Below, in pieces: positions 1-64,000 of a stretch of DNA of 64,000 nt (positions within the stretch are counted from its first letter, which is position 1; each line of letters opens with the position of its first letter). A model generated the notes under the pieces. The model did not search any database. It saw only the letters and a program-made list of their open reading frames with translations, and was not told the DNA's origin. Position numbers and translations under genes: made by a program. Where the stretch lies: contig NZ_CP109994.1 in NCBI RefSeq assembly GCF_025947065.1, positions 2,542,001 through 2,606,000 on the forward strand, written 5' to 3'. Origin of the DNA: Flavobacterium sp. N1736. Lineage in GTDB: Bacteria > Bacteroidota > Bacteroidia > Flavobacteriales > Flavobacteriaceae.

Positions 1-2014
1 CCGGAACCGCCGGCGGTTGGAAAAACTCGATATTAGCACCCGGAATATCTTTCGATTTCTCTTCCAGTTCAATCATAATCTCCTGTACAGATTCTTTACG
101 GTCGTTCCAGTCTTTTAAGTTGATCAAACAGGTACCGGCATTAGATCCTGTACCTTCCGTCAAAATTTCATAACCTGCCAATGAAGAAACTGATTTTACA
201 CCGTCAATTGTTTCCGCAATTTTTTGCAATTGTTCTGCAATATTATTTGTTCTTTCTAATGATGAACCCGGAGGTGTTTGAATAATGGCATAAAACATTC
301 CCTGATCCTCATTCGGAATAAATCCTGAAGGAACTGTGCTGCTGATTAACCATGTTCCTGCGCAAAATCCTAAAAGAGCAATAATAGTAACCCCTCGTCT
401 GTTTACAATTTTACCTAGTACATTTTGGTATTTACCTTGTGCAAGGTTAAACTTGTTATTAAAACCGTCGATAAATCTATTTATTGGCGTTCTCTTTTTA
501 GGCGTACCATGATTATTTTTTAACATCATCGCACAAAGTGCCGGCGTTAAAGTCAAAGCCACAATACCAGAAAGGATAATCGCTGTTGCCATCGTAATCG
601 AGAACTGTCTGTAGAAAACCCCCACCGGACCAGACATAAAAGCAACCGGAATAAATACCGCCGCCATTAAGAATGTAATCGCAACAATTGCTCCTGCAAT
701 CTCGTGCATTGCTTTTTTAGTTGCTTTAAATGGAGAAAGATGTTCTTCTTCCATCTTGGCGTGAACGGCTTCGATAACTACAATTGCATCATCGACGACG
801 ACCCCAATCGCTAATACTAAAGCAAATAGCGTAATTAAGTTCAATGAAATATCAAAGAATGTCATGAACACAAAAGTTCCAACCAACGAAACCGGAACCG
901 CAATTGCCGGAATAACCGTAGATCGCCAGTCTCCTAAGAAAAGAAATACAACCAAACCAACCAAAATAAATGCCTCGATCAAAGTATGAATTACTTTTTC
1001 GATAGAAGCATCAAGGAATTTAGAAACGTCATACGAAATTTCATAATCCATTCCTTTTGGAAATTTTTGCTTGATTTTTTCCAATTTCGCTTTAACATCT
1101 TCAATAACCTGATTTGCATTAGATCCAAAAGATTGTTTTAATACAATCGCCGCAGATGGTTTTCCATTCAAATTAGAATAAATATCATACATCGAACTTC
1201 CAAATTCTACTTTGGCAATATCTTTCAAACGCAACAATTCTCCGTTACTGCTTGATCTTACGACGATATTTTCGTATTGTTCTTTAGTTGTAAAACGTCC
1301 TGAATATTTTAATACATACTCAAAAGCCTGAGAACGTTTCCCTGAGCTTTCCCCTGTTTTACCAGGAGAAGCTTCCAAACTCTGACTAGATAATGCTTCC
1401 ATTACCTCATCGGCAGAAATTTTATACGCCAGCATACGATCAGGTTTTAACCAGATACGCATTGCATATTCACGTGTTCCCAAGATATCTCCTGATCCCA
1501 CACCATTTACCCTTTTTAATTCTGATAAAACGTTGATATCTGCATAGTTATATAAGAACTTCATGTCCGTATTTTTATCCGTACTGTAAAGATTCACATA
1601 CATCAACATACTCGGAACCTCACGGGTAATCTTAACACCTTCTCTAACTACCAACGGAGGTAATTTATTAGTTACCGAAGCCACACGGTTTTGAACGTTA
1701 ATTGCAGCCTGATTAGGATCTGTACCTAAATTAAATACAACCTGAATACTTGCTTCACCATCATTTCCGGCATCAGAAGTCATATATTTCATTCCCGGAA
1801 CTCCATTTAAGGCTCGTTCTAAAGGAATAACAACCGATTTGATCATCAATTCACCATTCGATCCAGGATAATCCGCCGTAACGTTTACCATTGGAGGAGA
1901 AATGGAAGGGAACTGGGTAATTGGTAAATTCATCACCGACAATACCCCTAAAAAGACAATTATAAGCGATATTACTATCGACAGTACAGGTCTTTGAATA
2001 AATTTATTAAACAT
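1..2014 (-). CDS. RND efflux pump inner-membrane transporter (HAE1/AcrB type), 3' end outside window
   Basis: Proton-driven drug exporter of the inner membrane, working with the adaptor encoded just upstream and an outer-membrane channel not seen here. The ATG is at 2014 (complement) and the frame is open to the window edge, so about 671 N-terminal residues of a family length near 1,050 are present. Residues 1-30 (MFNKFIQRPVLSIVISL) are the typical first membrane helix. The TM4 motif VVVDDAIVV carries the paired proton-relay aspartates at about 408 and 409, matching AcrB numbering closely. The periplasmic stretch NLGTDPNQAAINVQNRV is typical of the porter domain. It lies 125 bp downstream of the adaptor gene on the same strand, so the two are probably one operon despite a hairpin repeat between them. 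The substrate cannot be read from sequence. Confidence 0.95.
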   Translation of the reverse strand, partial: MFNKFIQRPVLSIVISLIIVFLGVLSVMNLPITQFPSISPPMVNVTADYPGSNGELMIKSVVIPLERALNGVPGMKYMTSDAGNDGEASIQVVFNLGTDPNQAAINVQNRVASVTNKLPPLVVREGVKITREVPSMLMYVNLYSTDKNTDMKFLYNYADINVLSELKRVNGVGSGDILGTREYAMRIWLKPDRMLAYKISADEVMEALSSQSLEASPGKTGESSGKRSQAFEYVLKYSGRFTTKEQYENIVVRSSSNGELLRLKDIAKVEFGSSMYDIYSNLNGKPSAAIVLKQSFGSNANQVIEDVKAKLEKIKQKFPKGMDYEISYDVSKFLDASIEKVIHTLIEAFILVGLVVFLFLGDWRSTVIPAIAVPVSLVGTFVFMTFFDISLNLITLFALVLAIGVVVDDAIVVIEAVHAKMEEEHLSPFKATKKAMHEIAGAIVAITFLMAAVFIPVAFMSGPVGVFYRQFSITMATAIILSGIVALTLTPALCAMMLKNNHGTPKKRTPINRFIDGFNNKFNLAQGKYQNVLGKIVNRRGVTIIALLGFCAGTWLISSTVPSGFIPNEDQGMFYAIIQTPPGSSLERTNNIAEQLQKIAETIDGVKSVSSLAGYEILTEGTGSNAGTCLINLKDWNDRKESVQEIMIELEEKSKDIPGANIEFFQPPAVP

Positions 2015-2062
2015 TTTTATATTTTTTTAATGATTAAAACAAACTGGAATTTAAAAGTGTTC

Positions 2063-2124
2063 CAAGTTTTAAGTTTCACGTTTCAGGTTCAGTGCGCAAC
2101 TTGAAACTTGAAACTTAAAACTTG
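2063..2124. repeat. Palindromic intergenic repeat, family A (GAAACTTGAAAC type)
   Basis: Two arms of about 27 nt (2063-2089 and 2098-2124) are nearly perfect reverse complements, built from the unit TTGAAACTTGAAAC, with an 8-nt loop. It lies inside the predicted efflux operon between the adaptor and pump genes. The same unit recurs at 25432-25490, 25971-26008, 27720-27778 and 45253-45276. Confidence 0.8.
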
Positions 2125-2139
2125 AAACAACTTAAAAAT

Positions 2140-3222
2140 CTATTCTGCTTTTACGCGTAAATGATTGATTACCGTTTGCGGAGCCAGGAATTCATATTTA
2201 ATCTTGTCATTTTCTTTTACTTTCTGAACTCCTTCAAGTAAGATTTTATCATTTTCAGTAAGTCCGGTGCTTACAACGTACAAATCTGGAATTTCGCCTG
2301 TAATCGTGATTTCTTTAGAAGTTACATGATTGCTTTTATCCACAACAAAAACATATTTTTTGTCCTGAATTTCGTAAGTCGCTTTTTGCGGAATTACAAT
2401 GGCATTTTTAAGCGGAACTAGCATTTGAACTTTTCCTGTTTCTCCGTTTCTAAGTAACTTTCCTGAATTAGGGAATCTTGCTCTGAAAGCGATATTTCCT
2501 GTTTCATTATCAAATTCACTTTCTATAACTTCAACGTTTCCTTTGTATTTGAAAAGTTCGCCATTTGCCAAAAGCAAATTCACATTATTTCCTGCGCGAT
2601 CTTTAATATCAGTTTGATATTGAAGATATTCCGGCTCAGAAACATTAAAATAAGCAAACATTTGACTGTTGTCTGAAAGGCTTGTCAGCAATTCACCTTC
2701 GTCAATAAGACTTCCTAATTTTAATGGAATTCTATCAATTGTTCCGTCAAACGGAGCTCTGATTTCGGTAAATGATAAATGAAGTTTTGCCAAAGCAACT
2801 TCAGCTTTTGCTGATTGTAATTTTGCCTGAGCTACACTTAATTCGTTTTTAGAAACGATATTTTTATCTGCTAATAATTTGGCATTTTGTACTTCAATTT
2901 CTGTTGATTTTTGTTCAGCCTGAGCTTTTAACAATTCTGCCTGATACATGTTTGGCATAATTTTAAACAAAAGCTGTCCTTTTTTAACAAACTGACCTTC
3001 ATCAACATAGATGTCTTGTAAAAACCCTTTTTCCTGGGCACGGATTTCGATGTTTCGAACAGATTTAATTTGAGAAACATACTCTTTAGTAAACGAAGTA
3101 TCGATTTTTACAGGATTGGTAACTGTAAATTTTTCTTCTTCTTCTTTTTCTTCTTTTTTTGATGTACAACTGGTAAGGCACAACACGGCAAGCATGCCCG
3201 TTAACACGATAATTCTTTTCAT
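2140..3222 (-). CDS. RND efflux periplasmic adaptor subunit (membrane fusion protein, lipoprotein)
   Basis: AcrA/MexA-type adaptor that links the RND pump to an outer-membrane channel. The 360-residue protein starts with a lipoprotein signal ending in the lipobox LTSC (Cys19). A lipoyl-like half-motif follows (VDEGQFVKKGQLLF, about residues 74-87), then an alpha-helical hairpin (about 95-145), the second lipoyl half with IRAPFDGTIDRIPL (about 154-167), and beta-barrel and membrane-proximal domains to the C terminus. Length and order fit the family. It precedes the pump gene on the same strand. No regulator of the TetR or AraC type adjoins it; the next upstream gene is a small exported protein of unknown function. 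Confidence 0.94.
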   Translation of the reverse strand: MKRIIVLTGMLAVLCLTSCTSKKEEKEEEEKFTVTNPVKIDTSFTKEYVSQIKSVRNIEIRAQEKGFLQDIYVDEGQFVKKGQLLFKIMPNMYQAELLKAQAEQKSTEIEVQNAKLLADKNIVSKNELSVAQAKLQSAKAEVALAKLHLSFTEIRAPFDGTIDRIPLKLGSLIDEGELLTSLSDNSQMFAYFNVSEPEYLQYQTDIKDRAGNNVNLLLANGELFKYKGNVEVIESEFDNETGNIAFRARFPNSGKLLRNGETGKVQMLVPLKNAIVIPQKATYEIQDKKYVFVVDKSNHVTSKEITITGEIPDLYVVSTGLTENDKILLEGVQKVKENDKIKYEFLAPQTVINHLRVKAE

Positions 3223-3392
3223 TGGTATTTAATTGGAAATTAAGCGATTAAATTAGGGACATAAGAATCCCTTAGATGTAAGTCATCAGTCGCCAGAATA
3301 ACGTGATTTTGTTGTAATTAGGAAGTACTTCTAAAAATTACCATCCATATTTATCCATGATCACGCTTTTGGTAACCGATGTATAAATAGAA

Positions 3393-3770
3393 TCAAATTC
3401 TTAAAACTCTCTGAGTAATGTAGATAGGATTTGACTGACCACAAGATGGTCCTAAAATTTCAAAAAGACTATATGAGTTTGCAACGCTTTGACGTGAGAT
3501 TGTCAAATATAAATCATTTAATAAACTATAGTTTGTTGCAAGAAACTTAGTCGAAAAATCTTTAAGATCATCGCTTCCAAGATATTCTTCATCCAAATCT
3601 ACATCAGCATCTTCGATTATCGAACTGCCCTGATCATTATTGGTGAATTTTACGCGATGTCTTTTCTCAAGATTGTGGTGAGAATTTAGGTGTGTTTCGG
3701 CATTAAGATATTGCCCTCCGCCTAACAGAAGGAAATTCATAAATGTTAAAAATACTACTAACTTTCTCAT
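3393..3770 (-). CDS. Small exported protein of unknown function
   Basis: I do not recognise this family. The ATG at 3770 gives 125 residues beginning MRKLVVFLTFMNFLLLGGG, a plausible signal peptide; a longer frame from 3833 adds 21 hydrophobic residues and is less convincing. After the signal comes a His-rich stretch (NSHHNLEKRH), an acidic patch (IIEDADVDLDEEYLG) and a hydrophobic C-terminal half with a single Cys. It is on the same strand as the efflux genes, 170 bp upstream of the adaptor, so it could share their transcript. Existence as a gene is supported by the signal peptide and ordinary composition only. Confidence 0.6.
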   Translation of the reverse strand: MRKLVVFLTFMNFLLLGGGQYLNAETHLNSHHNLEKRHRVKFTNNDQGSSIIEDADVDLDEEYLGSDDLKDFSTKFLATNYSLLNDLYLTISRQSVANSYSLFEILGPSCGQSNPIYITQRVLRI

Positions 3771-4028
3771 TTGAGTGCGAAAGTAATAAAAGATCGGAAT
3801 AAAAAAAATAAAATAAGAAAGTCTTAACAACATATAATATACGAAAACGTTTTCTTTTTATTTCTGCTTTTTATTTCACAATAAAAACATCTATTTTATA
3901 CAAAAACAATATTTTAGCTTAACATTTAAACAACATTGCTACAGTATTCAAAACGTATTAGCTCAAAATGAGTAAAAATCGTAAATATTTGAGGCTGTAT
4001 ATTTTATTTGATAATTCCTGCTCTTTTT

Positions 4029-4433
4029 TTATATTAAAATTTCCATTATAGTAAATTCCTGTTCCGCTTTTATAAAAGTTTTGTGCGTATCTTTCATTCC
4101 AAATTTCTCATAAAACGACTTTTTATTTGTTCGGGCATTACACCAGACTTTCTTTGCTTTTTTATCTTTTGCTAATTTTAAAATATACTTTAAAAGCTCA
4201 GATGCAATTCCTTGTCCCTGAAAATCTTCTAATGTTGCCAGCTTTCTAAACTGCATTTCCTGATCAACAAAAAAACAGGAAACTATGGAGACTAATTTTT
4301 CCTGAATAAAAACTCCAAAATGCATTCCTAAATCATCTTCTTTAAGCTGCACAAATTCAAAAGGCTGATCCGGCCACATTACTTCGTTCCTGATTTGCCA
4401 GGTTTGAGAAGCCTCAATTTCTTTAATAATCAT
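4029..4433 (-). CDS. GNAT family N-acetyltransferase
   Basis: Acetyl-CoA-dependent N-acetyltransferase of unknown substrate, 134 residues, the normal size of a single GNAT domain. The acetyl-CoA pyrophosphate-binding loop is visible as FQGQGIASELLKYI (about residues 76-89), preceded by the beta-strand FRKLATLEDF, and the C-terminal signature SFYEKFGM (about 106-113) is the usual end of the fold. The neighbours on both sides are unrelated, so it is probably a monocistronic gene. Cytoplasmic; no signal peptide. Confidence 0.85.
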   Translation of the reverse strand: MIIKEIEASQTWQIRNEVMWPDQPFEFVQLKEDDLGMHFGVFIQEKLVSIVSCFFVDQEMQFRKLATLEDFQGQGIASELLKYILKLAKDKKAKKVWCNARTNKKSFYEKFGMKDTHKTFIKAEQEFTIMEILI

Positions 4434-4608
4434 GGTTTAATTCTTTTCCATTCAAATTTAAACCAATTTACACAGCTATTCAAATTGAGGCAAAAAGAAA
4501 ACACATTATATTAACTATCAAACAGATACTAAAAATAAATAAGATAAATCTCTCTATTTCGATTAATAATAATTATTTTTATAGTATCTAAAAACGAAAA
4601 TATCCAAT

Positions 4609-5175
4609 ATGAAAAAATTTATTGTAACTGCATTATTATGTATTAGTGTAAACGGTTTTGCACAATTGATACAATTTGGACCACAATTTTCGGCCAATAT
4701 TACTTCGCCCATAAGCGATGATTTTAGTTCTAAAAGTTCAGGAACTGATATTGGTTTTGCAGGATTTGCAAGAGTTAATTTATTGCTTTTTTACGGTCAG
4801 GCCGAATTTGGTTACGCAAAAAATAAATTTACTGTTTCACAAACGGGAATAGTTGGCGAAACTGAATATGAATTAGCAGGAACAGACGCTACATTAATTG
4901 CCGGTTATAAAATACTCCCATTTGGTAAATTAGGAAATCTCCGCATTTTTGTTGGTTATAACTGGAAACATTACTCTGATATAAAAGCCAGTAATGATAT
5001 TAATTTAATTGCTTTTGAACAGGATAACAGCAGTATTCTTGGCGGCGTTGGTGTCGATTTATGGAAACTTACATTAGATTATCGTTATCTGGCCGGTTTG
5101 TCAGATCTTGATGCTTCAGGCAGAGAATTAAAAACCGGAATTTCTACTGTTACACTTGGGTTTAAATTTCTCTAA
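4609..5175 (+). CDS. Outer-membrane beta-barrel protein (porin-like, signal peptide)
   Basis: The 188-residue protein begins with a clear signal peptide (MKKFIVTALLCISVNGFA, cleavage before Q). The rest consists of alternating hydrophobic/aromatic strands and ends in VTLGFKFL, a terminal pattern typical of outer-membrane barrels recognised by the BAM machine. Size suggests an eight-stranded barrel of the OmpA/OmpX/opacity type. Nothing in the neighbourhood indicates a substrate. It is convergent with the ACT gene, with a palindromic repeat between them that could act as a terminator for both. Confidence 0.75.
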   Translation: MKKFIVTALLCISVNGFAQLIQFGPQFSANITSPISDDFSSKSSGTDIGFAGFARVNLLLFYGQAEFGYAKNKFTVSQTGIVGETEYELAGTDATLIAGYKILPFGKLGNLRIFVGYNWKHYSDIKASNDINLIAFEQDNSSILGGVGVDLWKLTLDYRYLAGLSDLDASGRELKTGISTVTLGFKFL

Positions 5176-5192
5176 TAGTAACAAAATAAAAA

Positions 5193-5249
5193 TGCCACAG
5201 ATTTACATATTCAGAGAATTAATCTTTTGAATCTGTAAAATCTGTGGCA
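5193..5249. repeat. Palindromic repeat, family D (CCACAGATT/AATCTGTGG)
   Basis: TGCCACAGATTTACA at 5193-5207 is matched by its near reverse complement at 5234-5249. It sits between two convergent genes. The same unit recurs at 30866-31027, 37880-37938 and 51046-51078, often as a nested palindrome. Confidence 0.75.
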
Positions 5250-5259
5250 AAAATAGTAT

Positions 5260-5652
5260 TTATTTAGAAAACGAATTCAGAATTTCCAAAGCTCGTTCTG
5301 CATCTTTTTTATTTACAAAAATATGATCGTGATAAAACGCAGCGACCACATTACAGCTAATTCCGTTTTGCGAAAGTGCTTTTGAAAACGCTGCCGTTAA
5401 ACCAACTGCTTCTAATGATGAATGAACCGTTAATGTTATCCAGGACATTACAACTGAATATTCAAGACTTAATTTATCTGCAATTTCTTTTTTAAGAATT
5501 AATGTAATGGCTTCTTTTTCTTTAAAGAACATTACAATATGATCTAAATCTATTTGCTCCTGTTTTTCTATTTTACAAAAAACATAATCACCTGAATTGA
5601 GTTCAGGTTTCATGCTTTTTAGTAATTGCTGTAAATCTTTTTCTCCTGACAT
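5260..5652 (-). CDS. ACT domain-containing protein
   Basis: A 130-residue cytoplasmic protein resembling the stand-alone ACT proteins of the ACT_3/ACT_7 type, small-molecule (often amino-acid) sensing folds. The N-terminal part (LNSGDYVFCKI) and the core (WITLTVHSSLEAVGLTAAFSKAL, written here as WITLTVHSSLEAVG then LTAAFSKAL) followed by ISCNVVAAFYHDHIFV fit the usual pattern of two tandem ACT folds. No enzyme domain is fused. It starts 12 bp after the stop of the gene at 5665-6279 on the same strand, so the two may be co-transcribed. The ligand is unknown. Confidence 0.75.
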   Translation of the reverse strand: MSGEKDLQQLLKSMKPELNSGDYVFCKIEKQEQIDLDHIVMFFKEKEAITLILKKEIADKLSLEYSVVMSWITLTVHSSLEAVGLTAAFSKALSQNGISCNVVAAFYHDHIFVNKKDAERALEILNSFSK

Positions 5653-5664
5653 AATCGTTAGTAA

Positions 5665-6279
5665 TTATACTTTCATATAGAAAAATTCCGGATTTTCATT
5701 TTCAATTTTTTCGACACCTTTTTCTGTTTGTTTCGCAATGTTTATTACGTGCAATATACTGGAGTTTTTATCAACAGTACAATTCCAGATTGTCCCGTCA
5801 GATAAGATAATGGCCGAGAATAAAGAATCTGATTTGTCTCTGTTAAAGTAAACTAAATCTTCTGTTTTAATATTTTTTTTAACTAACGTTTTTTTGTCCT
5901 GCTCATAAAAAATAATTTTGTTTTCAGATATTTCAATGAATTCTTCTACTTCTTTATTTTTAGAATCAGCTTCTGTTTTTACGGCCCAAACCGGTTTATC
6001 ACCTTTCATTCTCCAAATTCCCAAAGCTTTCTGCATTATTTCTTTTCTTAAAATAGCTTTCAGGGTATCTACTTTTTTACTTGATTCCTGACCTATCTCA
6101 TTTTCAGGTCTAATTTTAGACGCTACAGAAAACAAATCGAGTGCATTTTTAAAATCTGATTTTTTGTAACAGGAAACAGCTAATTCATATTTATTCTTTT
6201 GAAATTTTGCTTTTGCATCATTTTGGGCATAAATGCAAATTGTAAACAATAAAAAAACAATAATTAAATAATTTTTCAT
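5665..6279 (-). CDS. Exported protein of unknown function with a short TPR-like N-terminal region
   Basis: The 204-residue protein has a signal peptide (MKNYLIIVFLLFTICIYA). Residues about 25-75 look like one to two helical repeats (YELAVSCYKKSDFKNALDLF, with RPENEIGQE), resembling tetratricopeptide repeats. The rest is a beta-rich region with no motif I recognise (KTEDLVYFNRDKSD, LSDGTIWNCTVD). It is followed closely by the ACT gene. The function is not predictable from sequence. Confidence 0.65.
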   Translation of the reverse strand: MKNYLIIVFLLFTICIYAQNDAKAKFQKNKYELAVSCYKKSDFKNALDLFSVASKIRPENEIGQESSKKVDTLKAILRKEIMQKALGIWRMKGDKPVWAVKTEADSKNKEVEEFIEISENKIIFYEQDKKTLVKKNIKTEDLVYFNRDKSDSLFSAIILSDGTIWNCTVDKNSSILHVINIAKQTEKGVEKIENENPEFFYMKV

Positions 6280-55840: not shown

Positions 55841-58210
55841 ATGGATATTCATTTATATAAAGAAAGTCCTTTCCAAACTATAATCTCATTTCATAAATTA
55901 ATAGAGTCTTTTGAAGAAATAGCTTTATCAAATGTTGATTATCGTTCTAATTATGCCAAGGCAATACTACAAGAAATAGCACTTATTCCTGAATTAAGAA
56001 CCGGAATTACGGAATATTCTATTATAAAAGACAACGAAGCTTTAATTAAAAATATACTGGCAGATTTATTTCCAACGGCTCTTACCAATAACGAAATAAA
56101 AGCTGTTACGGTTCCGTTTCAAAATGTTTCATTTAATTATACAGAACGTTTTAAGAAAATTTTACGCAACGCAGGCGACGAATTTTATATGGAAATTCGT
56201 GATTTCGATGATCACCAATTCTATATTAATAACTGCTGTTTGATTTTAGGTATTTATTATAAGCAGAAAATTGACTTTAATAAACCGTTTTTTTATGATA
56301 TTCCGGATGAAGACGGCGTAGAAAAACATTACCGAATTTTGTATAATGGAGATTTTATGGAGATTATTCCAACAGAAAATGCCATACACTTAACTCAGGA
56401 CGATATCGATTTGTTAATGGATAATTATAGCGATATCGAACTCTGGAAATCAAAATTCCCAAAAGGAAGCTGGATTTTAAAAGGTTTTGGAATTGTTTCT
56501 TTATTTGACGCTACAACTGAAAGTGCGATATCAAACTTAAAAAGTAATTTACTGAAACCGGACACAAAAACGGTTGCATCAAATGATATTATAGAAAATA
56601 TTTTTAAATCTATATTTAAGGTTCCGCACTTAAAAGTTGGTTTTATTATTTATAATCCTGAAGAAGAAAAATTCATCAGACCTATTAAGTTTGATAATCA
56701 GCTGCAGAGTTTTTTACTTTCTTCAGATCAGGAAGTGGATTGCAAGAATGCTTTTTTTGGATGTTCTTTTGAGAATTTATTAGATAAAAAAGAGCCTTTG
56801 GTCATTTCTAATGTGAAGAAATTTATTGAAGAATCGACTAATAAAACGCTTGGCGAACATTTATTGAGACAAGGTATTCAAAGTTGTGTTTTTGCGCCTG
56901 TTATTAAAGATGGTCATTTATTGGGTGTTGTAGAACTGGTTTCAGAAAATGCACGTGATTTAAATAGTATAAACGCTACTAAACTTGAACTGGTTTTACC
57001 TTATTTAACGGATACAATTGATCGTTATAATACGGATATGCAACATCAGATCGAGGCAATTATTCAACGTGAGTATACCACGATTCACCCAAGTGTGTAT
57101 TGGAAATTTAGAAAAGAGTCTCAAAATTATTTCCAAAATACGAATCATACAAAAGATTATATTTTTAAGGAAATTGTTTTTAAAAATGTATTCCCTTTAT
57201 ACGGACAAATCGATATTAAAGGTTCGTCTGAGCATAGAAATGAAACGGTAAAAAGGGATTTAAAAAATCAATTGACCACGATTTTGGAAATTTTTGAAAA
57301 TCAGAAACCAAATAGTAATTTGGTACTTCTTGAGCAGCGAAAATTTGAGTTGGAATCGATGCGCGCTGAGTTAGAAAATCCGCTAAAGGCAGATACTGAA
57401 CAGCATATTCAGCGTTATATTGAAGAAGAAATTCATCCTATTTTAAAAAACACAAAGGACACGGCAAAAAATCAAAAGCTGGAAGAATTATATTTTGAAA
57501 GTCTTGATGAAAAAACAGGCATGTTTTATCAGGAAAGAAAGAAGTTTGATAATGCAATGTCTATTATAAATAAAAGGCTGGCTACTGTTCTGGACAAAAA
57601 ACAGCTTGAGGCGCAGCAAATTTATCCGCATTATTATGAGCGTTTTAAAACGGATGGTGTTGAGCACAATTTATATATTGGTGCTTCAATTTCGCCAACA
57701 AAACCTTTTGATATTATGTATTTGCACAACTTGCGTTTGTGGCAGTTGCAAACTTTGTGCGAAATGGAATTAGAACATCACCAGCTTAAAGAATCTTTGC
57801 CTTATGAGCTTGATGTAACTTCGTTGATTTTGGTGTTTAGCGCACCGCTTTCTATTCGTTTTAGAATGGATGAAAAACGTTTTGATGTTGACGGAACTTA
57901 TAATGCAAGATATGAAGTGGTAAAAAAACGTATTGACAAGGCAAATATCAAGGGAACAAAGGAACGAATTACTGAGAAAGAAAAAATTACAATTGTCTAT
58001 TCTCAGAACAATGAGGAAACTGAGTATTTGAAATATATCAAATATCTACAGCACAAAAAGATTCTGGAGCCTTCGATCGAACAATTTGAAGTTGAAGATC
58101 TTCAGGGCGTTTCAGGTTTAAGAGCAATTCGTGTTAAAGTGATTAATAACGTAAGTAATTCAGCTATTAAAAAAATAACATATCAGGATTTATTAGATGA
58201 GCTCAACTAA
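55841..58210 (+). CDS. Large cytoplasmic protein with a GAF domain, function unknown
   Basis: A 789-residue protein with no signal peptide and no membrane helix. A GAF domain lies at about residues 245-400 (GIQSCVFAPVIKDGHLLGVVELVSE, in parts IQSCVFAPVIKDGH and LLGVVELVSE). The region after it (about 440-640) is helical and rich in Glu/Lys, with a coiled-coil look. No HisKA, GGDEF, PAS or helix-turn-helix is evident, so it is not a standard signalling output. Proteins of this layout appear in related flavobacteria with no known role. A hairpin overlapping its stop codon follows. Confidence 0.7.
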   Translation: MDIHLYKESPFQTIISFHKLIESFEEIALSNVDYRSNYAKAILQEIALIPELRTGITEYSIIKDNEALIKNILADLFPTALTNNEIKAVTVPFQNVSFNYTERFKKILRNAGDEFYMEIRDFDDHQFYINNCCLILGIYYKQKIDFNKPFFYDIPDEDGVEKHYRILYNGDFMEIIPTENAIHLTQDDIDLLMDNYSDIELWKSKFPKGSWILKGFGIVSLFDATTESAISNLKSNLLKPDTKTVASNDIIENIFKSIFKVPHLKVGFIIYNPEEEKFIRPIKFDNQLQSFLLSSDQEVDCKNAFFGCSFENLLDKKEPLVISNVKKFIEESTNKTLGEHLLRQGIQSCVFAPVIKDGHLLGVVELVSENARDLNSINATKLELVLPYLTDTIDRYNTDMQHQIEAIIQREYTTIHPSVYWKFRKESQNYFQNTNHTKDYIFKEIVFKNVFPLYGQIDIKGSSEHRNETVKRDLKNQLTTILEIFENQKPNSNLVLLEQRKFELESMRAELENPLKADTEQHIQRYIEEEIHPILKNTKDTAKNQKLEELYFESLDEKTGMFYQERKKFDNAMSIINKRLATVLDKKQLEAQQIYPHYYERFKTDGVEHNLYIGASISPTKPFDIMYLHNLRLWQLQTLCEMELEHHQLKESLPYELDVTSLILVFSAPLSIRFRMDEKRFDVDGTYNARYEVVKKRIDKANIKGTKERITEKEKITIVYSQNNEETEYLKYIKYLQHKKILEPSIEQFEVEDLQGVSGLRAIRVKVINNVSNSAIKKITYQDLLDELN

Positions 58211-58380: not shown

Positions 58381-59559
58381 TCAAATCGATTTAAAAGCAA
58401 TTACAAACGCAATAACCGTCACGATAATTCCGGCCATAAAAAGGTTGTAGGCAATTCGCAGTAAATTGTATTTACGCTGTAAAACCAAGCCAAGGTAATA
58501 TAAATCTTTGATCATGGTTGAGTACAAATAATCACGATCTTTCATCATTTCGTTCATTGCCCAGTCATATTCTTCTAAAGGCATTTTATAGAAATTTCCA
58601 AAAAACAATAAGTTGATTTTTTTATTCTCTATATCTTCTCGGGTAAAAGTACCGGTTGTTACTTTTGGTCGTGTCGAAAGTATGGCAAAAATAATTGTCG
58701 TTACGCTGGACATTAACATGATGAATGTTGGAATTACCAGGTGTGCATTTTTTGGACTGTCTAATTTTGGAATTATCGATGATAGTGCAATCGAAATAAT
58801 AATAGCGTTTACAGATAATAAGATATTGGCTTTACTATCTGCAATGCCGCTTAAACGCGTGTGATTTCCTAATGTAACGCGAAATAATGTATCGACACCA
58901 CGATCCGGTTTTTCAATTTTGTCTTTCTTTTTATTCTCGTCTTCCAATTTATCAGCTGCTTTTTTTTCTTGTTTTTCGATTTTCTTTTGAACCAAAAGTA
59001 AGTTTTTTTCTTTTAAAGGCTGCCATTTTTTTAAGGCATAATCTGTATAAAAGCGATGTTTATTTAAAAGAAAACTCAAATTTTCCTTTGCCCATTCTGC
59101 ATTAGAAAAAGAAACATTATAAGCGTTTTTCAATTCAAGACGCAATAATTCGCAGGTTGTTTCATATTGATTTCCCATTAGATGCGCAAAATCGGCATCT
59201 TTTATAATTTTTTCTAAATGGGTTTTCGGTACGTATTCTTTTACGGTTGCCAAAATTAAAGAGGATACTTTTGCAATAAATGCATCAGACTGATCTTTTT
59301 CTTTCAAAAATTTAGTTGCAATTCTTACACTTTCTTCTTCATGCTTTTCATAACCTATTATATAACCTGTGTCATGAAACCAGGCGGCAACCAAAAGCAT
59401 TTCTTTTTCATCTCCTCCAACATCTTCTTTTTTGCACAGCTCTTTTACTGCATTTACAACAGTTAAAGTATGGTTAAAATTATGATAAGAATATAAATTA
59501 GAAAGTTTATCTTTGAGTAAATTACTGACGAAATCTTCAGATTGTTCTATTAGATTCAT
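58381..59559 (-). CDS. HD domain fused to a Pycsar-type transmembrane effector domain (PycTM, formerly DUF5706)
   Basis: A 392-residue protein. Residues 1-190 form an HD phosphohydrolase domain with His30 (YHNFNHT), the His62-Asp63 pair (WFHDTGY) and Asp121 (IKDADFAHL), so a complete metal site. A charged helical linker (about 190-220) follows. The C-terminal domain (about 228-392) has RLSGIADSKANILLSVNAI and three membrane helices, the hallmark of Pycsar membrane effectors, which in defence systems respond to cCMP or cUMP and damage the membrane. No cyclase gene is nearby, so this is probably not a complete Pycsar system. It is divergent from the fusion gene 28 bp away. Confidence 0.85.
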   Translation of the reverse strand: MNLIEQSEDFVSNLLKDKLSNLYSYHNFNHTLTVVNAVKELCKKEDVGGDEKEMLLVAAWFHDTGYIIGYEKHEEESVRIATKFLKEKDQSDAFIAKVSSLILATVKEYVPKTHLEKIIKDADFAHLMGNQYETTCELLRLELKNAYNVSFSNAEWAKENLSFLLNKHRFYTDYALKKWQPLKEKNLLLVQKKIEKQEKKAADKLEDENKKKDKIEKPDRGVDTLFRVTLGNHTRLSGIADSKANILLSVNAIIISIALSSIIPKLDSPKNAHLVIPTFIMLMSSVTTIIFAILSTRPKVTTGTFTREDIENKKINLLFFGNFYKMPLEEYDWAMNEMMKDRDYLYSTMIKDLYYLGLVLQRKYNLLRIAYNLFMAGIIVTVIAFVIAFKSI

Positions 59560-59587: not shown

Positions 59588-62500
59588 ATGAAATTGTTTT
59601 TGGATAATCATTTTATTACTAAGATTAAAAATTATTCTTTAGTAATCACTATATCATTTTTACTGTATTCGTGTGCCACACACAAGGCACAATACGGTAA
59701 AAATGTGAGCGCTAACGAAACGGATAACGCAACAGATACTATAAAAATTGCACATACTTTATTTTTAGTTGGAGATGCAGGAAATGCTGATGAAGAACAG
59801 GCACAACAGACATTGGAATTATTGCATCAGAAATTAAAAAGGGCGAATAAAAAATCGACTTTAGTTTTTTTGGGAGATAATATTTACCCAAAAGGTTTTC
59901 CTGACGGCAACAACGATTCTGAAAAGGCTTTGGCAGAAACAAAACTGAATAATCAGTTAAAATTAACGAAGGGATTTAAAGGAAAAACAATATTTATTCC
60001 CGGAAATCATGATTGGTATAGCGGTATCAAAGGTCTGGAACTTCAGGCTGATTTTGTAACTAAATATTTAAACGATAAAAAAGCATTTCTTCCAAGAAAA
60101 AGCTGTCCTATCGAAGATGTAAAAATTGATAGTACTTCCACTTTGGTTACGATTGACAGTGAATGGTTTCTGGAAGATTGGGATAATCATCCAACAATAA
60201 ACGATAATTGCGACATTAAAACCAGAGAAGATTTTTTTGATGAATTAGAAAACATTCTGAATAAAAATCAGGAAAAAACAGTGGTTATTGCGATTCATCA
60301 TCCTTTGCTAAGCAACGGAACGCACGGAGGTCAGTTTTCGTTAGAGAAACAATTATTTCCTTTAGAGAACAAAATTCCGCTTCCGGTAATTGGTTCTTTT
60401 ATTAATTTGCTGCGAAAGACGTCCGGCGCAAGTCCGCAGGACATTCAAAATAAACAATATACTATTTATGCAAAGCGAATTAAAACGTTATTGCAAGGTC
60501 AAAAAAATGTAATTGTAGTTTCAGGGCACGATCATAATCTTCAATATATTAATAAGGAAAACATCAAACAAATTATTAGCGGCGCCGGTTCTAAATCTGA
60601 GGCAGCAAGGGCAATTAATGAAAATGATTTTTCGTACGGAGGAAATGGTTATGCAACGCTGACTTTATTTAAAAGCGGTGATGCAAAAGTGGCTTACTTT
60701 GGAAATGAAAATCAAAAGGAAAAATTACTTTTTGAACGTGAGATTATAAAAGCTAAAGAAATTAACTGGGCAGCAGATGTTTCAAATAAATTTCCTGCAA
60801 CTATTACAACATCTATTTATTCTAAAAAGATGACGGATAAAAGTTTGTTTCACAAGTTTTTATTTGGTCAGCATTACCGTAAATACTACAGTTTGCCAAT
60901 CGAAGCCAGAACGGCAACGATTGATACTTTAATGGGCGGTTTAAAACCTATTCGCGAAGGCGGCGGGCATCAATCTGTATCGTTAAGAATGTCTGATCCC
61001 AAGGGAAGAGAATATGTAATGCGTGCCATGAAAAAAAGTGCTACTGCATTTTTACAGTCGGTTGCGTTTAAAGATCAATATATTGTAAATGAATTCGATG
61101 ACACATATACTGAAAATTTTCTTTTAGATTTTTATACGACTGCTCATCCTTACGCCCCTTTTGCAATTGGCAGTATGGCATATCAGTTAGGTATTTCTCA
61201 CACAAATCCTGTTTTATATTATATTCCGAAACAAGAAGGTTTAAAAGAATTCAATTCGAATTTTGGAGATGAATTATATATGGTCGAAGAAAGACCTGCG
61301 GATAATCATCTGGATGGTAAAAATTTTGGTAATCCAACCAATATTATCAGTACAGAAGATATGATGGCGAATCTTCATAAAGATGAAAAATATTCTGTTG
61401 ATGAAAAAGAATATATGAAGGCGCGTTTATTTGATATGTTAATTGGTGATTGGGACAGACACAGCGATCAATGGCGTTGGGGAGAATACAAAAAAGGGGA
61501 TAAAGTTATCTACAAACCTATTCCGCGCGATCGCGATCAGGCATTTGCAAAATACGACGGAACGTTACTTTCGATATTAATGAATATTCCGGCACTTCGC
61601 CACATGCGTACTTTCAAGAACAAAATTGATAATGTAAAATGGCTTTCCAGAGAACCTTATCCTATGGATTTGGCTTTCTTAAAAACTTCTGAAGAGAAGG
61701 ACTGGCTTGAACAGGCTAAGTTTATTCAGGAAAATTTATCAGACAGTGATATTGATAATGCTTTTAAAAATATGCCGAAAGAAGTTCAGGATGGAACTGT
61801 TGAGGATATTAAACGCAAGCTGAAAAACAGGAAAAAAGAGTTGCAAAAATATGCTGCAGAATATTCAGATGTTCTGGCTAAAACGGTAATGATTGCGGGA
61901 ACTGATAAAAAAGACAAATTTGTTATAAACCATAATGCCAAAAAAAGCATTGAAATTCAGGTGTACCGAATTAAAAAAGAAGGCGATGAACTGGTTTATA
62001 CAAAAACGGTAAATGATGCAAAAACTAAAAATCTTTGGATTTATGGTTTAGACGATACGGATGTCTTTGAGGTTGTTGGCGATAAGAAATCGAACATAAA
62101 AATTCGTTTAATTGGCGGACAAAACAATGACACTTACAATATTGAAAACGGAAAAAAAGTGATTGTTTACGATTTTAAATCAAAAAACAATACTTATAAT
62201 TTCTCCCAAGGTCTCGGGACGAAAACCAAAACACAGCTTACAGATGATTATGATGTAAACTTATACAATTACGAAAAACCAAAATATAATGTTATTTCAG
62301 GACTTCCAAATATTGGTTTTAATCCTGATGATGGCGTAAAAGTGGGTATTAATCTTAATTATACGGTTAACAATTTTAAACAGAATCCGTATACGCAAAG
62401 GCACGTTATAAATGCTTTTTACTATTTTGCTACGGGCGGTTTAGAATTTAATTATGTAGCTCACTTTCCGGGATTATTGGGTAAATGGGTTATTGATGTA

Positions 62501-63334
62501 GAATCGCTTTATACGACTCCAAATTTTGCCATGAATTATTTTGGATACGGAAATGAAACGACGTATGATGATAAAGAGGTGGGAATGGATTATAATCGTG
62601 TTCGTATTCGCAAATTTAATGTTTCGGGCGCTATAAGACACGTTGGGCGTTATGGAAGTGAATTTAGTATGCAGCCAATTTTTCAAAGAATGACGGTTGA
62701 AGAAACGGAAGACAGATTTATTGACACGCCAAATATTGTAAATCCGAATGTTTTTGACAGTCAGAATTATGGTGGTTTAAAAATGAAATATCTTTTTAAA
62801 AATTCTGATTTTGCAGCAAAACCTACTTTGGGAGTTGCATTTATGTTTTCGGCAACATGGCTGACTAATTTAGATGAAAGCAAACAAAACTTTCCAACTC
62901 TTGAAAGTCTTTTAGGTTTTACTCATAAAATCGATCATAACGGAAAATTAGTTTTAGCGACTCTTTTAAAAGGAAAAGCTGTTTTAAATAATAATTATGA
63001 TTTTTATCACGGTGCGTCTTTGGGCGGAGATACTGATTTAAGAGGGTATAGAAACGAGCGCTTTTTAGGAAGTTCTTATTTTTCTCAAAGTAGTGATTTA
63101 CGTTTTACTATTGGTAAAATTCAAAAAACAATCGCGCCATTAACGTACGGAATTCTGGGAGGTTTTGATTATGGAAGGGTTTGGCTTGACGGCGAAGATT
63201 CTAAAAAATGGCATCAGGATTATGGCGGCGGACTTTGGTTAAACGCTATTAATGTGCTTACTGCCCGAATTTCTTATTTTAAATCTCCTGATGAAGTAGG
63301 TAGAGTTATTTTTGGAGCGGCGTATAGCTTTTAG
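59588..63334 (+). CDS. Exported ACP5-like phosphatase / FAM20C-like kinase-region / outer-membrane-barrel fusion
   Basis: A 1,248-residue protein. A signal peptide ends in a lipobox-like FLLYSC (Cys29). Residues about 55-345 form a metallophosphoesterase resembling tartrate-resistant acid phosphatase: VGDAGNAD (Asp63), FLGDNIYPKG (Asp97), PGNHDWYSG (139-142), IHHPLLSNG, and GHDHNLQY with ISGAG (313-330). Residues about 440-760 resemble FAM20C/HipA/CotH kinases: VMRAMKKS (Lys482/483), LFDMLIGDWDRHSDQW (Asp623) and PRDRDQAFAKYDG (Asp648/650). About 905-1248 is a 16-strand-like beta barrel ending in FGAAYSF, typical of outer-membrane proteins. The phosphatase call is strong; the kinase call is inference from motifs. 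Confidence 0.8.
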   Translation: MKLFLDNHFITKIKNYSLVITISFLLYSCATHKAQYGKNVSANETDNATDTIKIAHTLFLVGDAGNADEEQAQQTLELLHQKLKRANKKSTLVFLGDNIYPKGFPDGNNDSEKALAETKLNNQLKLTKGFKGKTIFIPGNHDWYSGIKGLELQADFVTKYLNDKKAFLPRKSCPIEDVKIDSTSTLVTIDSEWFLEDWDNHPTINDNCDIKTREDFFDELENILNKNQEKTVVIAIHHPLLSNGTHGGQFSLEKQLFPLENKIPLPVIGSFINLLRKTSGASPQDIQNKQYTIYAKRIKTLLQGQKNVIVVSGHDHNLQYINKENIKQIISGAGSKSEAARAINENDFSYGGNGYATLTLFKSGDAKVAYFGNENQKEKLLFEREIIKAKEINWAADVSNKFPATITTSIYSKKMTDKSLFHKFLFGQHYRKYYSLPIEARTATIDTLMGGLKPIREGGGHQSVSLRMSDPKGREYVMRAMKKSATAFLQSVAFKDQYIVNEFDDTYTENFLLDFYTTAHPYAPFAIGSMAYQLGISHTNPVLYYIPKQEGLKEFNSNFGDELYMVEERPADNHLDGKNFGNPTNIISTEDMMANLHKDEKYSVDEKEYMKARLFDMLIGDWDRHSDQWRWGEYKKGDKVIYKPIPRDRDQAFAKYDGTLLSILMNIPALRHMRTFKNKIDNVKWLSREPYPMDLAFLKTSEEKDWLEQAKFIQENLSDSDIDNAFKNMPKEVQDGTVEDIKRKLKNRKKELQKYAAEYSDVLAKTVMIAGTDKKDKFVINHNAKKSIEIQVYRIKKEGDELVYTKTVNDAKTKNLWIYGLDDTDVFEVVGDKKSNIKIRLIGGQNNDTYNIENGKKVIVYDFKSKNNTYNFSQGLGTKTKTQLTDDYDVNLYNYEKPKYNVISGLPNIGFNPDDGVKVGINLNYTVNNFKQNPYTQRHVINAFYYFATGGLEFNYVAHFPGLLGKWVIDVESLYTTPNFAMNYFGYGNETTYDDKEVGMDYNRVRIRKFNVSGAIRHVGRYGSEFSMQPIFQRMTVEETEDRFIDTPNIVNPNVFDSQNYGGLKMKYLFKNSDFAAKPTLGVAFMFSATWLTNLDESKQNFPTLESLLGFTHKIDHNGKLVLATLLKGKAVLNNNYDFYHGASLGGDTDLRGYRNERFLGSSYFSQSSDLRFTIGKIQKTIAPLTYGILGGFDYGRVWLDGEDSKKWHQDYGGGLWLNAINVLTARISYFKSPDEVGRVIFGAAYSF

Positions 63335-63482: not shown

Positions 63483-64000
63483 CTATTTTAACTTAAACTC
63501 ATAAACATTCCCTCCTATTTTGTTTGTTTTTTCGTCGGCGATTAGTAAGGTGTTGTTGTCTTTAAAAACGATGGCTTCTTTTTGTGAAAAGTGATTTAGT
63601 TTTATTTCTGTCTGGGTTCCTTTGTGAAATAAATCTCCTTTAAAGTCTGTAAACAAAACGATTTTATCATGACTTAAAACCACAACTTTTTTTCCGTCTG
63701 GGCTTATTGTTGCGCTGGTTAAAACGCAATGGTTGTAATTAGCACAGGTTTTAAACTCTCCTATTTTTGTTGCTTTTTGAGTTCCGGGTGCATTTAATAT
63801 CTTGTAGATAAAAGCGGTTCCGTCAAAGTTTTTGCTTCGGTTTTTTGTAAAGAGATAAAAGTAGTTTTGATATTCAAAAAAACCTTCTACATCATAAAAC
63901 ATTTCTTTTTTCTTTGGAGGAAATTCTGTCTGTTCCGGATAGGAAAATGAAACTTTATATTCGGCGACAGCCATTTCTTTATTGAGTTCATTTTTGGCTA
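63483..64000 (-). CDS. Beta-propeller-like protein of unknown function, 5' end outside window
   Basis: The frame is open from the stop at 63483 to the window edge. An internal ATG at 63974 would give MAVAEYKVSFSYPEQTEF, but the codons before it (AKNELNKE) continue in frame, so the true start is probably beyond 64000. Visible blocks are MFYDVEGFFEYQNYFYLFTK, ATISPDGKKVVVLSHDKIVLF (parts ATISPDGKKVVV and LSHDKIVLF), and DNNTLLIADEKTNKIGGNVY. The SPDGKKV motif and beta pattern resemble propeller blades. No function can be assigned. Confidence 0.6.
   Translation of the reverse strand, partial: AKNELNKEMAVAEYKVSFSYPEQTEFPPKKKEMFYDVEGFFEYQNYFYLFTKNRSKNFDGTAFIYKILNAPGTQKATKIGEFKTCANYNHCVLTSATISPDGKKVVVLSHDKIVLFTDFKGDLFHKGTQTEIKLNHFSQKEAIVFKDNNTLLIADEKTNKIGGNVYEFKLK

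Follow-up and report, generated by a model that had tools for sequence, protein, structure and literature searches.

Can a single outer-membrane protein carry both a phosphatase and a kinase? The question is raised by a gene at positions 59588-63334 (+ strand) of a 64,000-nucleotide stretch of Flavobacterium sp. N1736 DNA (assembly GCF_025947065.1, contig NZ_CP109994.1, positions 2,542,001 to 2,606,000), hereafter the window, from a host genome of 5.1 Mb that is held in one contig and is 99.97% complete. The gene has a stop-free translation over 1248 codons, and its 1248 aa product consists of a lipoprotein signal, a purple acid phosphatase, a kinase-like domain, a beta-rich linker and an Omp85 barrel, in that order. 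A first-pass annotation of the window had proposed a phosphatase, a kinase-like region and a barrel in one polypeptide. Sequence profiles and predicted structures upheld this composition, and we regard the fold and domain content of the fusion protein as secure. All of the motifs quoted in that annotation could be located in the translation: GHDHNLQY at residue 313, ISGAG at 330, LFDMLIGDWDRH at 614 (containing D616 and D623), PRDRDQAFAKYDG at 646 (containing D648 and D650) and the K482/K483 pair. We favour, at a probability of roughly 0.55, the reading that this is a dual-enzyme, barrel-held outer-membrane protein with a functional kinase that takes part in phosphate physiology.

The middle domain (residues ~416-772; 60833-61903, + strand) of the window protein is unrecognised by Pfam and NCBIfam, and the only Pfam match above cut-off on the whole protein is PF00149 (residues 60-316, E 5.6e-11). 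Searches of both databases with the middle domain and with family members gave no usable family; scattered weak Pfam matches of the family (among the best 25 of 33 families, one or two members each) were taken as chance, and a PADLOC match to PDC-M03A for the stand-alone member L032 (E 1.9e-4) was given no weight. Database names of proteins that carry the domain are metallophosphoesterase or BamA/TamA family protein. Folded alone, the middle domain was predicted with a mean local distance difference score (pLDDT) of 92 and a template modelling score (pTM) of 0.90. The model has a bilobal kinase fold, with structural matches to CtkA, PI4K-II, CotH, Fam20 and HipA, and on this predicted structure the domain very probably has the fold of the protein kinase-like (PKL) superfamily.

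Candidate catalytic residues fall at the expected places in the model. Secondary structure assigned by DSSP puts a glycine-rich loop (G458-G460; 60959-60967, + strand) between strands 1 and 2 of the domain (453-458 and 463-469), and K483 (61034-61036, + strand), the candidate nucleotide-binding lysine, at the end of strand 3 (475-483). The candidate catalytic D623 lies with D616 in the catalytic-loop motif DMLIGDWDRH (61433-61462, + strand), after helix 606-619, and the candidate metal-binding D648 and D650 lie in PRDRD (61523-61537, + strand) at the DFG position, directly after the hairpin 629-636/639-646 that trails the catalytic loop. D623 and D648/D650 thus appear to occupy the catalytic-loop and DFG-type aspartate positions, as the first-pass annotation had suggested, and the order of the secondary-structure elements in the model is consistent with a common pocket. 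Conservation marks the motifs as more than accidental; it was scored in an alignment of 95 sequences, including the window's own, from 90 loci, with the weak match L071 left out. R748 and G658 are present in all 95, D616 in 94, D621 and R624 in 92, K483 and E567 in 90, D623 and D648 in 87 and D650 in 85; the loop glycines G458, G459 and G460 are kept in 86, 87 and 80, respectively. Either K482 or K483 had been put forward as the nucleotide lysine, and the alignment separates them, K482 being retained in only 25/95. D514 (89/95) is a candidate helix-C partner of K483 on the strength of its position. Two of the features on which the kinase proposal had been staked, a bilobed fold and well-conserved residues, were therefore found, and we think it rather probable that the kinase, with its four catalytic residues (K483, D623, D648 and D650), would be active.

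The nearest solved relative by two measures is CtkA, a Helicobacter pylori kinase (PDB 3akj/3akk/3akl), which is the best PDB match by sequence profile (E 0.062 in one search and 0.0016 in another) and the best Foldseek match (E 1.6e-5). Its DTLLGNFDRH aligns with DMLIGDWDRH, the catalytic-loop segment being in register by sequence profile and D648 lying one column off CtkA D179; its solved chains have 275-296 residues, lack phosphatase and barrel, and share 11-15% identity with the window domain. The top structural Z-score, 14.7 over 254 residues, belongs to CotH (PF08757; PDB 5jd9/5jda), tied with PI4K-II, and hhalign pairs CotH IPWDFDKCF with IPRDRDQAF of the window protein. According to the available part of the CotH study (PMC7821199), the mutants D228Q and D251A are inactive; the spacing of these two residues is 23, against 25 for D623-D648. 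The Pfam family PF08757 itself matched just one of 54 members (E 0.025, below the 23.8-bit cut-off as inferred from E) and did not match the window protein. HipA/HipT toxin kinases (PF07804) gave a weak profile score and were not among the best 25 of 33 Pfam families matched by members; the window domain, by contrast with them, is exported. Fam20 secretory kinases (PDB 4kqb, the Golgi casein kinase, and 5yh2, Fam20C/Fam20A) were found by Foldseek at E 1.0e-3 and 1.8e-3, ranks 9 and 14, below CtkA, PI4K-II and Rio2. We take the cation-binding aspartate of FAM20C to be D458, which gives a D451-D458 spacing of seven, the same as D616-D623. In the available part of PMC7948968, D451 and R459 of human FAM20C are placed in the catalytic segment, R459 adjoining the cation-binding aspartate. 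The likeness to FAM20C, HipA and CotH that the annotation had noted was thus correct as to a kinase-like fold; the nearest solved relatives are instead CtkA and CotH/PI4K-II, with Fam20 lower.

The N-terminal domain (residues ~57-395; 59756-60772, + strand) is a metallophosphoesterase of the purple-acid-phosphatase type. D63, D97, Y100, N140, H238, H314 and H316 are invariant in 16 aligned N-terminal domains, and we take these seven residues to make up the five purple-acid-phosphatase metal motifs (DxG, GDxxY, GNHD, H and GHxH). A profile of the 16 domains matched human tartrate-resistant acid phosphatase ACP5 at E 7.1e-19, and the seven sequences below E 0.01 were six acid phosphatases and one glideosome protein (5.5e-7). 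The earlier comparison with ACP5 was right, the metal-motif residues, including Tyr100, being common to both proteins; the window phosphatase differs from ACP5 in being fused to a kinase-like domain and a barrel.

At the C-terminus (residues ~902-1248, the final residue being F; 62291-63331, + strand), a 1200-residue model (pLDDT 81.5, pTM 0.73) shows 16 strands, joined to the kinase-like domain by the beta-rich linker (residues ~766-884; 61883-62239, + strand, by DSSP of the model). The model barrel matches Sam50, TamA and BamA in structure searches, and its 16 strands and conserved RG(F/Y) motif identify it as Omp85; the NCBIfam profile Omp85_fam also matches the C-terminus (E 4.9e-18), at 65.8 bits against a cut-off of 200 bits and hence sub-threshold. 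Barrels alone filled the best 50 rows of the full-length structure searches, which are therefore uninformative on the other domains. The outer-membrane barrel of the first-pass annotation can accordingly be specified as Omp85 by both fold and profile. POTRA domains gave no match in Pfam or NCBIfam on the window protein, whose N-terminal region is phosphatase plus kinase. The lipoprotein-like signal also held up as a prediction: the signal peptide (59588-59674, + strand) has the lipobox LYSC with Cys29, a column that is Cys in 48/53 aligned sequences, and 33/51 satisfied a stricter lipobox pattern. The N-terminal domains of Omp85 proteins are normally periplasmic, and by this topology both enzyme domains should face the periplasm. 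The earlier placement of the activity at the cell surface is unsupported for that reason; exposure like that of PlpD is possible, and nothing in the analysis points to it. Lipid-anchored Omp85 proteins are known in Flavobacterium from TamL, as described in the part of PMC12045153 available. The Riemerella protein OMP76 was considered as a relative and rejected, being a 710-aa TonB-type barrel in the corresponding part of its source.

Sampling of 296 genomes across the phylum found the kinase domain in 111 (60/139 genera). With residues 380-900 as query, 5073 proteins among 7994 scored candidates matched at E <= 0.001, the nearest relative among the matches listed being a Flavobacterium chryseum protein (91% over these residues). 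Listed protein matches include records from Ignavibacteria, Calditrichaeota and KSB1. At least 587 of 595 pattern-matched stretches held relatives, and the 80 kept include Flavobacterium johnsoniae; none of 31 pattern-matched stretches from viral contigs coded for a relative. Reading frame length and content define the following classes: the domain alone with a hydrophobic segment at its N-terminus (423-425 aa), a class of 498-570 aa, proteins that join kinase and barrel (818-1028 aa) and proteins with all three modules (1201-1384 aa). The four catalytic residues are all retained in 51/51 phosphatase-kinase-barrel proteins of at least 1150 aa, many of them closely related, as well as in 5/5 stand-alone proteins (~423 aa) and 6/8 of the 498-570 aa class. 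All seven scored phosphatase residues are retained in 47 of the 51 fusions, so that 47 have both sites intact, in four the phosphatase is broken and the kinase intact, and none shows the reverse; since all fusions were found via the kinase region, those with a badly decayed kinase may be missed. One of the four is the paralogue in the window's own genome (L093:6130-9816), which has lost its phosphatase site (GENE for GNHD, SAHEG for SGHDH) and kept its kinase site. At two loci, L039 and L040, the modules are adjacent same-strand genes for a kinase (518 and 545 aa), a phosphatase lipoprotein (403 aa) and a barrel (394 and 395 aa). The L039 set (1838-5793) has a gap of 6 bases and a 4-base overlap between its genes, and Pfam recognises PF00149 (1.6e-6) and Omp85 (2e-11). 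The occurrence of kinase, phosphatase and barrel as separate genes in one lineage and as a single protein in another argues for a functional unit.

Decay is also seen among kinase-barrel proteins. Four of them (L063, L065, L067 and L069) retain the lysine and D623 and have an IRHY-type sequence in place of RDRD; they possibly form a pseudokinase branch, as far as their sequences go, and each adjoins a gene of the HD/PycTM cluster, with HD confirmed by Pfam for L063. L091:2976-8190 holds tandem kinase-barrel genes, the first degenerate and the second intact.

The gene neighbourhood may connect the domain with phosphate physiology. Divergent from the fusion gene, with 28 bp separating the two start codons (that of the fusion gene at 59588), lies a gene for an HD domain plus PycTM membrane protein (58381-59559, - strand; Pfam PycTM 7.9e-38, HD 1.7e-9). 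Convergent with the fusion gene, downstream, is a SdiA-regulated/phytase-like propeller gene (63483-64000, - strand, cut by the window edge); the whole gene (286 aa, L092:9484-10344) matches PF06977 at 2e-6, and the piece inside the window gave no match. Neighbour clusters were compared across loci L001-L091, with long flanks for L032-L091 only and Pfam run on one example per cluster. HD/PycTM was the commonest (26 loci), followed by the SdiA-regulated type (16 loci, plus eight more at sub-threshold Pfam score), PPK1 and histidine phosphatase (eight each), cyclase with tetratricopeptide repeats (TPRs; six), PAP2 (five), and CotH and the phosphate-selective-porin type (three each); the histidine phosphatase is presumably SixA-like. 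A PycTM search covered 80 of the 111 positive genomes, 70 of which have PycTM, and placed it no more than 10 kb from the kinase gene in 51/80, where random placement, rather than matched control genes, gives ~0.6 expected; by hand tally, 19/24 family labels have PycTM within 20 kb at least once. PPK1 could be positioned in 104 of the 111 genomes, and because low-scoring second copies may be missing in 33, the PPK1 counts are lower bounds: within 10 kb in at least 18/111 genomes, 21/138 rows and 11/24 family labels, and within 20 kb in at least 35 genomes and 38 rows, against ~1.9 rows expected on the same random basis. Neither set of counts is independent, owing to shared descent. Where a genome has two PPK1 genes and exactly one lies within 10 kb, the near copy is the lower-scoring one in 13/13 genomes by hand tally (G261, G070, G239, G294, G140, G214, G224, G280, G080, G253, G138, G254 and G118). 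According to the available part of a phosphate-starvation study of F. johnsoniae (PMC8115612), a PPK1-like gene (Fjoh_3851) and a PF00149 protein (Fjoh_4172) are induced under starvation; we claim no kinship of the latter to the fusion family. The adjacency of HD-PycTM and polyphosphate kinase to the kinase domain suggests phosphate physiology, and on balance we think it rather probable that the fusion gene is linked to phosphate/polyphosphate physiology.

Other features of these neighbourhoods are recorded here. At L081:7277-9957 and L082:6921-9542 the fusion gene is directly followed by a gene for a TPR-bearing nucleotide cyclase and, after it, a gene with PycTM only; together they look like the two components of a Pycsar pair. 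L045, L051 and L053 have CotH kinase, phosphate-selective-porin-like and PAP2-cluster proteins in a block near a kinase-barrel gene. A 789-aa GAF protein is encoded at 55841-58210 of the window, with relatives in four loci (L073, L086, L088 and L089). Downstream of the propeller gene, a 373 aa product (L092:10454-11575; RLLGDMRAYNYVIV...IRPIDFDQQCYEG) looked kinase-like by eye and was set aside, having no family-profile match and nothing in Pfam.

In the mechanism that we favour, two phosphoryl-transfer enzymes would be held in the periplasm by an outer-membrane protein, the N-terminal phosphatase lipid-anchored and the middle domain, a functional member of a new PKL family, fixed to the membrane by the 16-strand barrel. 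The kinase would put phosphate on an envelope substrate (protein, glycan, lipid or small molecule), the phosphatase would strip it from that substrate or a linked one, and the system would be part of phosphate/polyphosphate physiology together with HD-PycTM, the phytase-like propeller and PPK1, the last of these in part of the phylum. That the two enzymes oppose each other on one substrate is a tentative element, somewhat doubtful by itself. We consider it improbable that the protein is a widespread reversible phosphorylation switch in one anchored polypeptide, acting on one envelope substrate, with PPK1 and HD-PycTM tuning it to the phosphate/polyphosphate state and with polyphosphate or a different non-ATP compound as a possible donor. 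Several results weigh against the favoured reading. Foldseek TM-scores are modest (0.40 to CtkA, query-normalised), and the hhalign matches are weak (HipA E 0.0028, probability 10.9%; CotH E 0.0032, 10.0%). Profile A1 (54 sequences, from 65 representatives below 60% identity minus 11 with a degenerate motif) and profile A4 (47 sequences, from 50 kinase-only pieces, seven degenerate proteins already left out, minus three more) contain motif-intact members only, which favours a kinase result. No PycTM lies within 20 kb in 25 of the 80 genomes, 10 of the 80 have none at all, and PPK1 is not near the fusion gene in the window's own genome nor, among the PPK1 matches listed, within 20 kb in 76 of the 111. 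The main text of the F. johnsoniae study (PMC8115612) does not contain the words metallophosphoesterase, calcineurin or Omp85.

Two further points against it, that just 20 of the 31 kinase-barrel proteins without phosphatase retain all four catalytic residues and that we know of no ATP pool in the periplasm, where ATP is not expected, would be explained if the middle domain were a pseudokinase, a kinase fold that serves the barrel in binding or assembly and leaves the phosphatase as sole enzyme; loss of at least one of the four residues in 11/31 of those proteins and 2/8 of the 498-570 aa class fits such a role. This is unlikely given the full retention in fusions and stand-alone proteins and the paralogue that kept its kinase site despite losing its phosphatase site. 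We rate still lower the possibility of an assembly or secretion factor like BamA, TamA or PlpD, in which the soluble domains would take the place of POTRA and help to assemble or export proteins: fold and profile both mark the barrel as Omp85, and the idea is close to Heinz and Lithgow's view of their unknown Omp85 groups, but the kinase domain also occurs in 13 proteins too short for a barrel (five of ~423 aa and eight of 498-570 aa), and the existence of separate genes indicates that the enzymes need not share a single chain with a barrel. Similarly improbable is a kinase-like domain that modifies lipids or small molecules in the manner of PI4K-II or FAM20B, with the phosphatase and the phytase-like neighbour serving phosphate scavenging; a kinase that uses up a phosphate-rich donor is a poor fit with scavenging, and no substrate-binding feature was identified in the analysis. 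The dual-enzyme reading with a functional kinase remains the one that we prefer.

As for novelty, the annotation had called the arrangement new, which appears correct for one of its parts. Phosphatase-barrel proteins have been known since Heinz and Lithgow (2014, PMC4104836), who, in the part of their paper available, describe a 'Metallo' group with PF00149 ahead of the Omp85 barrel, and also a 'noNterm' group; PF00149 is labelled metalloprotease there, whereas Pfam calls it calcineurin-like phosphoesterase. Going by the group description, as distinct from the paper's sequence tables, the 'Metallo' group probably includes the window architecture. The word 'kinase' is absent from the main text of that paper, and searches of the open-licence full-text literature (subscription papers and preprints lie outside this scope) turned up no account of the kinase domain, which thus appears to be the new part. 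If it works as a kinase, a reversible phosphorylation system may be built into the outer membrane of these bacteria, which bears on how phosphorylation is carried out beyond the bacterial cytoplasm, and with which donor. The family is large and present in the culturable F. johnsoniae, with named residues to mutate, and its PPK1 and HD-PycTM context makes it possible to test whether envelope phosphorylation is connected with polyphosphate and with nucleotide-type signalling.

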